Below are positions 6,585-31,376 of a stretch of 64,000 nucleotides of DNA, piece by piece. The notes under the pieces are model-generated. The model was not told the origin of the DNA and did not search any database. It saw only the letters and a program-made list of their open reading frames with translations. The translations under genes were made by a program, and so were the position numbers. The stretch covers positions 186,001 to 250,000 of the forward strand of contig JAQDAD010000001.1 in NCBI GenBank assembly GCA_027682205.1, in the 5' to 3' direction. Origin of the DNA: Streptococcaceae bacterium AF54-32pH5A. GTDB taxonomy: Bacteria; Bacillota; Bacilli; Lactobacillales; Streptococcaceae. Position 1 is the first letter of the stretch. Each line of letters starts with the position of its first letter.

Positions 6585-6602
6585 TGTTATACTAGATATA
6601 TG
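6585..6602 (+). promoter_or_regulatory. Extended -10 directly abutting mutY ATG
   Basis: TGT TATACT (6585-6593) is followed by AGATAT and then the ATG at 6600. Transcription should begin about 7 nt after the -10, at or next to the A of the start codon. There is no Shine-Dalgarno sequence, which predicts a leaderless mRNA. See the finding on four such genes. Confidence 0.7.
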
Positions 6603-7772
6603 TTAGATTTGAAAGAATACGGTGTTGACATGTGGCCGGAGGAGAAGATTTACTCTTTCCGCGAGAAACTCCTCAACTGGTACGATGAAAACAAACGGGA
6701 TTTACCATGGCGTAGAAGTAAAAATCCTTATCATATCTGGGTTTCTGAAATTATGCTCCAACAGACTAGAGTAGATACAGTTATTCCCTACTATGAACGA
6801 TTCTTGGACTGGTTTCCAACTGTTAAAAGTTTGGCTAATGCGCCTGAAGAGCGTTTGCTGAAAGCTTGGGAGGGGCTAGGTTATTATTCTAGAGTGCGTA
6901 ATATGCAGGTTGCGGCTCAGCAGATTATGGCTGACTTTGGTGGTCAATTTCCAAACACCTATGAAGGAATTTCTAGTTTAAAAGGGATTGGTCCCTACAC
7001 TGCGGGAGCAATTTCCAGTATCGCTTTTAATCTACCCGAGCCAGCAGTTGATGGCAATGTCATGCGAGTTTTGTCTCGCTTGTTTGAAGTCAATCATGAT
7101 ATCGGAGTTCCCAGCAATCGAAAGATCTTCCAAGCTATGATGGAAATCTTGATTGATCCAGAACGACCAGGAGACTTTAATCAAGCCTTGATGGACTTAG
7201 GGTCTGATATAGAGGCCCCAGTTAATCCTCGACCAGAAGAAAGTCCTGTTAAGGAATTTAGCGCAGCCTATCAGAATGGAACCATGGATTCTTATCCGAT
7301 TAAAGAACACAAGAAAAAGCCTCTTCCAATCTATCTCAAGGCTTTGGTTGTGCGCAATGACCGCGGTCAATATCTACTCGAGAAGAATGAAAGTGAGAAA
7401 CTGCTAGCTGGTTTTTGGCATTTCCCCTTGATAGAAGTAGAGGAGTTTTCACAGGAAGAGGAACAGCTGAATCTGTTTGCTCAGGTCGCTGAAAAAAGCG
7501 TTACTTTCGGTCCAACACCCCAAGAAAGTTTTGAGCAGGATTATGATTTAGAAGTTGATTGGTCCCATCAAGTATTTGATCAAGTCAAGCATGTCTTTAG
7601 TCATCGGAAATGGCATATTCAAATCCTAGCGGGTCAGGTGACAGAATCAAAACAGTTTTCTGATAGAGAAATTCGTTGGATTTCCCCTCAGGAGTTTTCT
7701 GACTACCCACTCGCTAAACCTCAACAAAAGATTTGGCAGGCTTATAAAATAGCTATAGAAGATGAGGGTTGA
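6600..7772 (+). CDS. mutY: A/G-specific adenine glycosylase, cluster-less
   Basis: Removes adenine mispaired with 8-oxoguanine. Helix-hairpin-helix SLKGIGPYTAGAISS is at 127-140, with catalytic E50 (VSEIMLQQTRVDT) and D151 (VDGNVMRVLSRL). The C-terminal MutT-like domain has HVFSHRKWHIQIL. The 390-residue protein contains no cysteine. The segment 200-225 (LGSDIEAPVNPRPEESPVKEF) stands where the C-x6-C-x2-C-x5-C cluster ligands normally sit, so it cannot hold a [4Fe-4S] cluster. The ATG at 6600 has no ribosome site. M11 at 6630 is an alternative start, also without one. It stands alone between the pta terminator and vicR. Confidence 0.93.
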   Translation: MLDLKEYGVDMWPEEKIYSFREKLLNWYDENKRDLPWRRSKNPYHIWVSEIMLQQTRVDTVIPYYERFLDWFPTVKSLANAPEERLLKAWEGLGYYSRVRNMQVAAQQIMADFGGQFPNTYEGISSLKGIGPYTAGAISSIAFNLPEPAVDGNVMRVLSRLFEVNHDIGVPSNRKIFQAMMEILIDPERPGDFNQALMDLGSDIEAPVNPRPEESPVKEFSAAYQNGTMDSYPIKEHKKKPLPIYLKALVVRNDRGQYLLEKNESEKLLAGFWHFPLIEVEEFSQEEEQLNLFAQVAEKSVTFGPTPQESFEQDYDLEVDWSHQVFDQVKHVFSHRKWHIQILAGQVTESKQFSDREIRWISPQEFSDYPLAKPQQKIWQAYKIAIEDEG

Positions 7773-7804
7773 CAGTAGCCATTTGTGCCTTCTTTACATT
7801 TTTT

Positions 7805-7813
7805 TGTTATAAT
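7805..7813 (+). promoter_or_regulatory. Extended -10 promoter of vicRKX
   Basis: TGT TATAAT at 7805-7813, with no -35 at normal spacing. AAAAGGTGAAC precedes the vicR ATG at 7835. Confidence 0.65.
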
Positions 7814-7834
7814 AGATAGAGAAAAGGTGAACAT

Positions 7835-29148: not shown

Positions 29149-29793
29149 ATGACCCAAGTAAAAAGCCTTTGTGTCATGGATGTTGATGGAACCTTAATTG
29201 CAGAAGAAGTGATTGATCTTTTAGGAAGAGAAGCAGGTTGCGAAGAGGAAATTTCACAGATTACGAATCAAGCAATGCGGGGAGAACTGGACTTTGAAAG
29301 GAGCTTACGAGAAAGAGTCGCTTTGTTAAAAGGTCTTCCAATTTCGGTCTTTGATACAGTTTTCAAATCCATCCATCTTTCCCAAAATGCTCAGGAATTT
29401 ATCTCCATTCTCCAAAAGAATGGCATTCTAGTTGGTTTAGTGTCTGGTGGCTTTACACCAATCGTTGAGAGATTAGCAAAATCCCTAGGTATTTCCTATT
29501 TCTCCGCCAACCAGTTAGAAGTCAAAGACGGCTTTTTAACAGGACGATTAGTTGGTGAAATTGTGACAGGTCAAGTAAAAAAAGCTACTCTTGAGAGATG
29601 GAGAATGCAATTTTCACTTCCTAGAGAAAGAACAATTGCCATCGGTGATGGTGCTAATGACCTCTTGATGTTAAAGTCAGCAGGTCACGGTATAGCCTTT
29701 TGTGCCAAGGAGGTCGTAAAAGCTGAGATAGCTTGTCATGTAGATACGAGGGATCTTTTAGAAGTTTTGCCCTGGATTGATTTCTTAGAATGA
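29149..29793 (+). CDS. serB: HAD phosphatase, phosphoserine phosphatase-like
   Basis: 214 residues from ATG 29149. GAGGAG sits 5-6 nt upstream, and the GTG three bases earlier is a poorer choice. HAD motif I is VMDVDGTLIAEE (D11, D13), motif II LVSGGFTPIVERL, motif III/IV AIGDGANDLLMLKSAG, and a helical cap region (about 20-75) resembles SerB. It probably dephosphorylates phosphoserine or a related phosphoester. The next gene, glycerate kinase, acts on glycerate and touches the same serine/3-phosphoglycerate branch. The 9-nt gap indicates an operon. Confidence 0.82.
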   Translation: MTQVKSLCVMDVDGTLIAEEVIDLLGREAGCEEEISQITNQAMRGELDFERSLRERVALLKGLPISVFDTVFKSIHLSQNAQEFISILQKNGILVGLVSGGFTPIVERLAKSLGISYFSANQLEVKDGFLTGRLVGEIVTGQVKKATLERWRMQFSLPRERTIAIGDGANDLLMLKSAGHGIAFCAKEVVKAEIACHVDTRDLLEVLPWIDFLE

Positions 29794-29802
29794 GAGGGAA
29801 CT

Positions 29803-30918
29803 ATGAAAATTGTAATCGCACCTGATTCTTTTAAAGAAAGTTTGACTGCAGAACAGGTCGCCAAAGCTATAAAAAGAGGCTTCGAGAAAGCGATTCCTAG
29901 TGTAGTTTGTTCTCTATGTCCAGTTGGCGATGGAGGCGAAGGAACTGTAGATGCGATTCGACATTCTCTTGAACTCGAAGAAAAATGGAAAGAGGTGACC
30001 GGACCTTTTGGTCATAAAGAAGCGATGCGCTATTTTCAAAAAGGACAACTTGCACTCTTTGAAGTTGCTGACTTAATTGGTTTAGGAAAGATTCCGCAGG
30101 AGAAACGAAATCCCCTCCACATCCAAACACGTGGTATCGGAGAGTTGATTCGCCACCTCATTGATCTTGGAATGAAAGAAATCTTTATCGGTGTTGGCGG
30201 TACCGCAAGTAATGATGGTGGAATTGGCATTGCAGCTGCTTTGGGTTATCGCTTTTATGATAAGAAGGGAGACGAATTGCCAGCTTGCGGTCAGACTTTG
30301 CTTGAGTTTGAGTCAATTTCCAAAGATGACCTATACAGGATTGCAGAAGATGTGAAGATTCGCATTTTAGCAGATGTTGAGAGTCCTTTATGTGGTCATC
30401 AAGGAGCAACCTATACATTTGGCAGACAAAAAGGCTTGGATCCCAGTTTATTTGAAACTGTAGATTTTGCCATACAAGAGTTTTATGAAAAATTCTCTCC
30501 TTCAACCCTATCTCTTAAAGGAGCAGGAGCTGGTGGGGGCATTGCTGCTGGACTCTGCGCCTTTGCACAGGCCAGTATCGTATCTGGGATTAACACTTGT
30601 TTAGATTTGGTAGACTTTGACAAGAAAGTTGAAGATGCTGACTTAGTTATCGTTGGAGAAGGTAGACTGGACAGTCAAAGTTTTGCAGGGAAAGCTCCTA
30701 TCGGTGTAGCAAAAAGAACTCCTGAAGGAGTTCCTGTTATCGCTATTTGCGGTAGTCTTTCTGAGGATTTACCTTCCCTGCCCTTTGAAAATATACAGGC
30801 AGCATTCTCTATCCTTGAGAAAAGCGAACCTTTAGAAGACAGTTTGAAAAAAGCAAGCCTCTATTTGGAGCACACGGCAACAAATATTGGTCGTTTATTA
30901 CAGTTGAGGAAGGATTAG
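29803..30918 (+). CDS. garK: Glycerate kinase (GarK/GlxK family)
   Basis: 371-residue glycerate 2-kinase. N-terminal IAPDSFKESLTAEQVAKAI, phosphate/active region CPVGDGGEGTVDAI, GVGGTASNDGGIGIAAALGY, and nucleotide region GAGAGGGIAAGL and VIVGEGRLDSQSFAGKAPIGVA are diagnostic. The product, 2- or 3-phosphoglycerate, enters glycolysis one step before enolase, encoded 0.6 kb downstream. GAGGGAAC precedes the ATG. The stop TAG overlaps the stop of the convergent yueI by 4 bp with no terminator between. Confidence 0.93.
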   Translation: MKIVIAPDSFKESLTAEQVAKAIKRGFEKAIPSVVCSLCPVGDGGEGTVDAIRHSLELEEKWKEVTGPFGHKEAMRYFQKGQLALFEVADLIGLGKIPQEKRNPLHIQTRGIGELIRHLIDLGMKEIFIGVGGTASNDGGIGIAAALGYRFYDKKGDELPACGQTLLEFESISKDDLYRIAEDVKIRILADVESPLCGHQGATYTFGRQKGLDPSLFETVDFAIQEFYEKFSPSTLSLKGAGAGGGIAAGLCAFAQASIVSGINTCLDLVDFDKKVEDADLVIVGEGRLDSQSFAGKAPIGVAKRTPEGVPVIAICGSLSEDLPSLPFENIQAAFSILEKSEPLEDSLKKASLYLEHTATNIGRLLQLRKD

Positions 30919-31361
30919 CCGAACCATTTTTTCCAGATGGATTTTTTAACTGGTTCATCCTGCTCAACCTCCCATAGATTTGGAAAAGCCAGCCGGAGAT
31001 CCTTTTCATCCACTTGAACAGGTTCGTTTGAATGGATAACCAAGCCTAAAGGAGAAGAAGTGTGATCCTCTGATACGATTGTTGCTTGACTATTGGTTTT
31101 CTTAGCTTCTTTTAAGTAGAATACTTGTTTATCAAACTCAATATTTGGCGAAATCTTCACAAAAAGTACCTCTGTCTTTTCTTGAAATTTTTCCAAAATC
31201 GATAAAAATCCCTTTTGTAGCTGAAGACTATTGGCTGTTTCAACATCCGCATAGCCCAGAACCCTCTCCTCGAAAGTGCCAAGAAAGCGACGTTGCTCAT
31301 CCGGGTTTAATTTTGGCCCACCATGAGCCTTTTCTAGTAGTTGTTTTGATAAATCTGTCAT
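30915..31361 (-). CDS. YueI family protein (DUF1694)
   Basis: 148-residue cytoplasmic protein of the YueI/DUF1694 family, found across Firmicutes, function unknown. Typical features are the opening LSKQLLEKAHGGPKLNPDEQRRFLGTFEERV and the mid-region VLFVKISPNIEFD. The ATG at 31361 has no ribosome site and lies 6 nt after an extended -10, so the mRNA is predicted to be leaderless. Its 3' end overlaps the convergent glycerate kinase by 4 bp. Confidence 0.85.
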   Translation of the reverse strand: MTDLSKQLLEKAHGGPKLNPDEQRRFLGTFEERVLGYADVETANSLQLQKGFLSILEKFQEKTEVLFVKISPNIEFDKQVFYLKEAKKTNSQATIVSEDHTSSPLGLVIHSNEPVQVDEKDLRLAFPNLWEVEQDEPVKKSIWKKWFG

Positions 31362-31376
31362 AAAATTAGTATATCA
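31359..31376 (-). promoter_or_regulatory. Extended -10 directly abutting yueI ATG
   Basis: Minus strand: TGA TATACT (31376-31368), then AATTTT, then ATG at 31361. The 6-nt gap is the same as in mutY, ABC-F and ligA. Confidence 0.7.

Follow-up and report, generated by a model that had tools for sequence, protein, structure and literature searches.

Leaderless messenger RNAs (mRNAs), which begin at their start codon, are already known from streptococci. The same start mode very probably applies to four genes (mutY, a gene for an ABC-F ATPase, ligA and yueI) in the stretch of DNA analysed here, which comprises 64,000 nucleotides (nt) of Streptococcaceae bacterium AF54-32pH5A (contig JAQDAD010000001.1, positions 186,001 to 250,000 of the forward strand) and is referred to below as the window. 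According to the published map of Streptococcus pneumoniae D39, 81 of 768 operons have a leader too short for a Shine-Dalgarno sequence, and 70 (9%) start on the first coding base (Slager et al., 2018, PMC6212727). The same report describes many D39 promoters as consisting of a -10 or extended -10 element alone, and the addition of a ribosome-binding site to a leaderless pneumococcal pbp2A-luc reporter produced no change (Slager et al., 2018, PMC6212727). Published counts for S. pyogenes (67 leaderless mRNAs, 8.6%) and S. agalactiae (78, 8%) are of the same order, with 54 leaderless transcripts common to these two species and 39 shared also with S. pneumoniae; every leaderless mRNA described for S. 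agalactiae has an AUG start, and 90% begin at the A of this codon (PMC6431027, PMC4448216). The fraction reported for Enterococcus is below 1%. An earlier survey located a TANNNT signal about 12 base pairs (bp) before the start codon, counted from the first T; within the Lactobacillales, the signal was reported for two clades, Lactococcus-Streptococcus and Oenococcus-Leuconostoc, and not for Enterococcus or Lactobacillus, with a peak of TG ahead of the box in Lactococcus (Zheng et al., 2011, PMC3160421).

The published 5'-end maps and the 2011 survey fit the motif data presented below, and the four genes are an ordinary instance of a known mode. The sources differ from the present analysis in what was recorded. 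The 5' ends of the D39 operons were measured (PMC6212727), whereas those of the window genes are deduced from sequence, and the names mutY and ligA are absent from the main text of the D39 map. The set shared by S. pyogenes, S. agalactiae and S. pneumoniae comes from measured starts in three species, whereas here four genes were followed in 59 genomes. The survey of Zheng et al. (2011, PMC3160421) was conducted at the level of genomes, and its available text does not name the four genes; counted in the manner of that survey, the 6-nt gap of the four window genes is exactly 12 bp. The first-pass annotation of the window had considered leaderless mRNAs to be uncommon in Firmicutes. For Streptococcus this premise is wrong, given the published rate of 8–9% and a motif excess in 59 of 59 genomes, and it is replaced by the known rate; the four sites themselves are settled as real and conserved.

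The four promoters and their start codons

Each of the four sites consists, as the first-pass annotation had described, of TGn, a TATACT or TAAAAT hexamer, 6 nt and an ATG, and a scan of the sequence upstream of the mutY, ABC-F, ligA and yueI starts found no Shine-Dalgarno core. On the forward strand, the mutY element (TGT-TATACT, 6585..6593) is followed by the spacer AGATAT (6594-6599) and by the ATG at 6600, which opens the coding sequence of an A/G-specific adenine glycosylase of 390 amino acids (6600..7772; NCBIfam TIGR01084, E value 1.7e-97). The ABC-F element (TGC-TATACT, 13044..13052, forward strand) and its spacer ACCTAT (13053-13058) precede the ATG at 13059 of an ABC-F ATPase of 633 amino acids (13059..14960, forward strand), which matches the ribosomal protection-like ABC-F family NF000355 of NCBIfam (E value 1.2e-140). 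Upstream of ligA, the element TGG-TAAAAT (17159..17167, forward strand) and the spacer AATATT (17168-17173) lead to the ATG at 17174 of an NAD-dependent DNA ligase of 652 amino acids (17174..19132, forward strand; NCBIfam NF005932, E value 2.1e-266). The fourth gene, yueI, lies on the reverse strand, with its element (TGA-TATACT) at 31368..31376, its spacer AATTTT at 31367-31362 and its ATG at 31361-31359; it encodes a DUF1694 protein of 148 amino acids (30915..31361; Pfam PF07997, E value 4.4e-29), for which no NCBIfam match was obtained at 1e-10. All four genes have an AUG start codon, and at all four the TGn stands immediately 5' of a TATAAT-like hexamer, as is characteristic of an extended -10 promoter. 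A -35-like hexamer with four of six matches is present before mutY, ABC-F and ligA, and one with two of six before yueI; the sequence TTGAAC sits 17 nt upstream of the ABC-F -10 hexamer. A terminator-like hairpin with a T run (6530..6545, forward strand), which lies 5' of the mutY promoter, emerged from a consensus scan that returned 11 such structures in the window against 8.3 in shuffled sequences, so that it is weak when taken alone.

Transcription begins some 7 nt past the -10 hexamer, and RNA polymerase favours a start site with a pyrimidine at -1 and a purine at +1. All four genes appear to possess an extended -10 promoter for the housekeeping sigma factor, with a spacer of 6 nt between the hexamer and the start codon, and the A of the ATG would be the first transcribed base. 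The resulting mRNA would begin with 5'-AUG, with neither a leader nor a Shine-Dalgarno sequence, and translation would proceed from this terminal AUG, as others have demonstrated for pneumococcal pbp2A, a gene other than these four (PMC6212727). In agreement with the first-pass annotation, the motif, its spacing, the absence of a Shine-Dalgarno sequence and the conservation described below indicate that mutY, ABC-F, ligA and yueI are very probably leaderless, as members of the known conserved streptococcal leaderless set.

Conservation of the box and its spacing

The arrangement was followed in orthologs from 59 Streptococcus genomes, mutY of G016 (broken frame) and yueI of G006 (no match) being dropped, hence a sample of 58 for these two genes. 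TGnTAnnnT-N6-ATG is found in 50 of the 58 mutY orthologs, with a gap of 7 in three more and no such element in five. For ligA, the gap is 6 in 54 of 59 orthologs, 7 in four and 9 in one. For ABC-F, 58 of 59 orthologs have the hexamer at gap 6 (TG present in 47 and absent from 11), and one lacks the arrangement. When gaps of 6 and 7 are taken together, the -10 hexamer is present in 53/58 mutY, 58/59 ligA, 58/59 ABC-F and 42/58 yueI orthologs, and among these motif-bearing cases the base at -1 is T or C in 53/53, 58/58, 58/58 and 41/42, respectively. Across all orthologs of mutY, ligA and ABC-F, the columns of the extended -10 element carry 1.17–1.51 bits per column, versus 0.23–0.26 at positions -45 to -19; a profile for yueI (1.62 versus 0.40 bits) was built from the 42 motif-bearing rows alone, and is biased and was not used as evidence. 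In six ligA orthologs with an N-terminus of another length, the position of the hexamer has followed that of the start codon, five of them having a gap of 6 and one a gap of 7. The first-pass annotation had read the 6-nt gap as a conserved start mode, and it is indeed kept across the genus, in part only for yueI (42 of 58).

The 16 yueI orthologs that do not carry the motif at gap 6 all carry a Shine-Dalgarno-like core. The two features are mutually exclusive, with 42 orthologs having the motif and no Shine-Dalgarno sequence, 16 the reverse and none a mixture, so that loss of the motif goes with a swap to Shine-Dalgarno. The start mode of yueI thus seems to alternate between leaderless and Shine-Dalgarno-led inside a single genus, which makes this gene a clean natural test pair.

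A second sample comprised 80 named loci, from which cases were left out if the gene fell outside the retrieved sequence, identity was below 60%, the alignment began after residue 5, no start codon lay within 5 codons or fewer than 60 bases were available upstream. A gap of 6 separates hexamer and start codon in 30/30 mutY, 79/79 ABC-F (54 with TG) and 36/36 ligA countable starts, versus 0/31, 0/19, 0/32, 0/4 and 0/36 starts of five neighbouring genes. The ABC-F orthologs are preceded by two dissimilar promoter sequences, TGCTATACT and TAGTAAAAT (e.g. L206, L207 and L214 versus L201 and L202), each at gap 6; this pair looks as if the promoter had been swapped and the spacing retained. In-frame stops break the mutY frame in the G016 assembly and the ABC-F frames in the G016 and G057 assemblies.

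At the scale of whole genomes, the excess of TGNTANANT-Nk-ATG over a reversed control in the 59 Streptococcus genomes amounts to 22.2 matches per genome at k = 5, 45.1 at k = 6, 29.1 at k = 7 and 11.5 at k = 12. An excess is seen in 59 of 59 genomes at k = 5, 6 and 7, and in 56 of 59 at k = 12. Part of the motif signal is due to plain promoters upstream of ATGs, because the excess at k = 12 exists. In a panel of 118 genomes from the Lactobacillales, the 16 belonging to Streptococcus have an excess of 45.7 per genome at k = 6, versus 2.2–12.9 in the other families, G140 being set aside. This last genome (family f4, genus g35, outside Streptococcus) has 98 motif matches against 31 in the control, an excess of 67, and perhaps represents a further lineage with many leaderless genes; high motif-to-control ratios, on small counts, were also obtained for G133 and G126. 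A genome-wide count, shuffled-type controls and a cross-species comparison had been proposed in the first-pass annotation as checks on its reading; they have been run, and their outcome favours the spacing.

The genome nearest to the window, G001, contains 66 strict motif matches, 58 of which were examined in context, and 31 of these 58 begin an open reading frame (ORF) of at least 100 amino acids (27 plus the four genes discussed here). PBP2A, the gene of the D39 leaderless reporter, served as a positive control, and carries TGATAAAAT-N6-ATG in G001. In a distant genome, G013, the tighter pattern TGNTANAAT gave 51 matches, 30 of which were examined; 18 of the 30 begin an ORF of at least 80 amino acids. 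Ten of these 18 have an ortholog in the G001 motif set (BLAST, 47–80% identity), namely RlmH, PBP2A, an FAD oxidoreductase, MutY, UvrC, PlsY, MurT, ABC-F, LigA and GtrA. The test of this overlap assumes 1300–2000 genes and a set of 31, the BLAST target having contained 33 proteins.

Several observations weigh against the leaderless reading. The arrangement is missing from 5/58 mutY, 1/59 ligA and 1/59 ABC-F orthologs, and mutY in G009, G018, G028 and G041 (L157, L164, L165 and L163) has neither the box nor a Shine-Dalgarno sequence; the fifth motif-less mutY ortholog, that of G012, has a G-rich stretch upstream. In G001, 27 of the 58 strict matches begin no ORF of at least 100 amino acids, some of them being preceded by a longer open frame. 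The window itself contains a near-miss absent from the first-pass annotation, the extended -10 element TGGTATAAT-N5-ATG at 3052, upstream of a gene for a GTP diphosphokinase (YjbM/RelQ-type; window 3038-3130), and this site is an ordinary promoter beside an ATG. In relatives of this enzyme other than the closest ones, the match starts at about residue 8–29, mostly 15–29, often with in-frame stops upstream, and AAGGGAG precedes the ATG at 3130. The longest ORF, from 3052, is over-extended, the gene more likely starting at 3130, and a fifth leaderless gene at 3052 was rejected on these grounds. The presence of a -10 element next to an ATG is thus not enough to identify a leaderless gene, for which conservation provides the test: conservation of the gap distinguishes the true leaderless starts of mutY, ABC-F, ligA and yueI from a promoter beside a chance ATG, as in the relQ-type gene.

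Chance, by which TGnTAnnnT would have arisen near ATGs in AT-rich DNA and the genes would be transcribed from elsewhere, draws on the fact that the raw count of TGNTANNNT-N6-ATG in the window, which is 5, is reached by 9 of 100 shuffles (shuffle mean 2.69). The bare motif count in the 64-kb window is not significant, but its placement at gene starts is: gene-start ATGs account for four of the five raw matches, and the 93 candidate starts of 54 called genes (in-frame ATGs up to codon 40) include four matches, where base composition predicts 0.18 (P = 3e-5). On the bare count, the first-pass annotation is not borne out. With the arrangement kept across the genus, a chance origin of the four sites has a negligible probability and is ruled out by conservation across Streptococcus. 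Leaderless transcription is the best reading, because the motif at gene starts beats chance and is conserved across the 59 genomes, and TGnTAnnnT-N6-ATG can be used in annotation as a mark of start codons in streptococci.

Start codon choice

The boxes might also be true promoters with wrongly annotated ATGs, giving a short leader and translation from a downstream codon behind a Shine-Dalgarno sequence. The relQ-type gene at 3052/3130 is such a case, and M11 of MutY is conserved in 54 of 56 orthologs. For the four genes this arrangement is nevertheless highly unlikely: in nearly every genome, the mutY, ABC-F and ligA orthologs align from their first residue, codon 5 of LigA, here an ATG, encodes isoleucine in several orthologs, and codons 2–10 of MutY have variation of 0.147, 0.05 and 0.379 at codon positions 1, 2 and 3, with no stop in the 56 orthologs. 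The N-terminus of MutY is probably translated from the first ATG, because codons 2–10 vary in a coding-like fashion without stops. Initiation at M11, which the first-pass annotation had named as a finding that would count against its reading, is unlikely in view of this variation mainly at third positions, although M11 may act as a secondary start, because it too is conserved.

Functions of the motif-bearing genes

With a pneumococcal genome size of 2.046 Mb, the pneumococcal density predicts 2.5 leaderless operons per 64 kb, and the probability of at least four is 0.25; the stricter count, at the density of strict-motif ORFs in G001, gives 1.1 expected (P 0.026). The local excess of leaderless genes in the window is mild at most, and the description of the four as an unusual local set is not supported. 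The first-pass annotation had further suggested that the start mode is perhaps tied to 70S or ribosome-stress initiation, and had pointed to the ABC-F factor and the two DNA repair genes among the four. A special regulon, in which ABC-F and repair genes would be united by leaderless mRNAs for translation by 70S or stress-altered ribosomes, has in its favour that leaderless mRNAs can use 70S ribosomes, with common regulation raised in the discussion of one published study (PMC6431027), and that the set shows conservation (an ortholog in the G001 set exists for 10 of 18 G013 motif ORFs). The G001 set is, however, functionally mixed; it also includes pabB, TrkH, MATE and EamA transporters, MurT, PBP2A and RibF, as well as PlsY, YaaA, GtrA and LysR- and MarR-type regulators. 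DNA repair accounts for 4/31 motif-bearing ORFs versus 3/49 motif-less window genes (P 0.42), and three other genes of the window, ung, addA and rexB, do not have the motif. The regulon is thus improbable, an enrichment in DNA repair being rejected on the P value and a stress regulon on the mixed functions, and the tie proposed in the first-pass annotation is not supported.

RNA modification is represented by 6/31 motif ORFs versus 1/49 motif-less window genes (P 0.012), a category chosen post hoc against a small background in which 12 of the 49 genes were unnamed at the thresholds used. This bias is a weak lead only. A genus-wide leaderless core biased towards rRNA- and tRNA-modifying enzymes (acting on ribosomal and transfer RNA) is a tentative and rather doubtful proposal; if it were true, the maturation of ribosomes and tRNAs would be linked, through leaderless initiation, to the condition of the ribosome pool. 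No paper on a streptococcal leaderless set with rRNA methyltransferase and DNA repair genes was present among the matches listed. Enzymes modifying rRNA or tRNA recur in the G001 and G013 motif sets (L001-L030, L345-L384, L415-L444): RlmH, RlmB, an RlmA-type methyltransferase, RsuA, TsaE and one further methyltransferase in G001, and RlmH, a RluA-type synthase, an RlmB-like methyltransferase and MnmL in G013.

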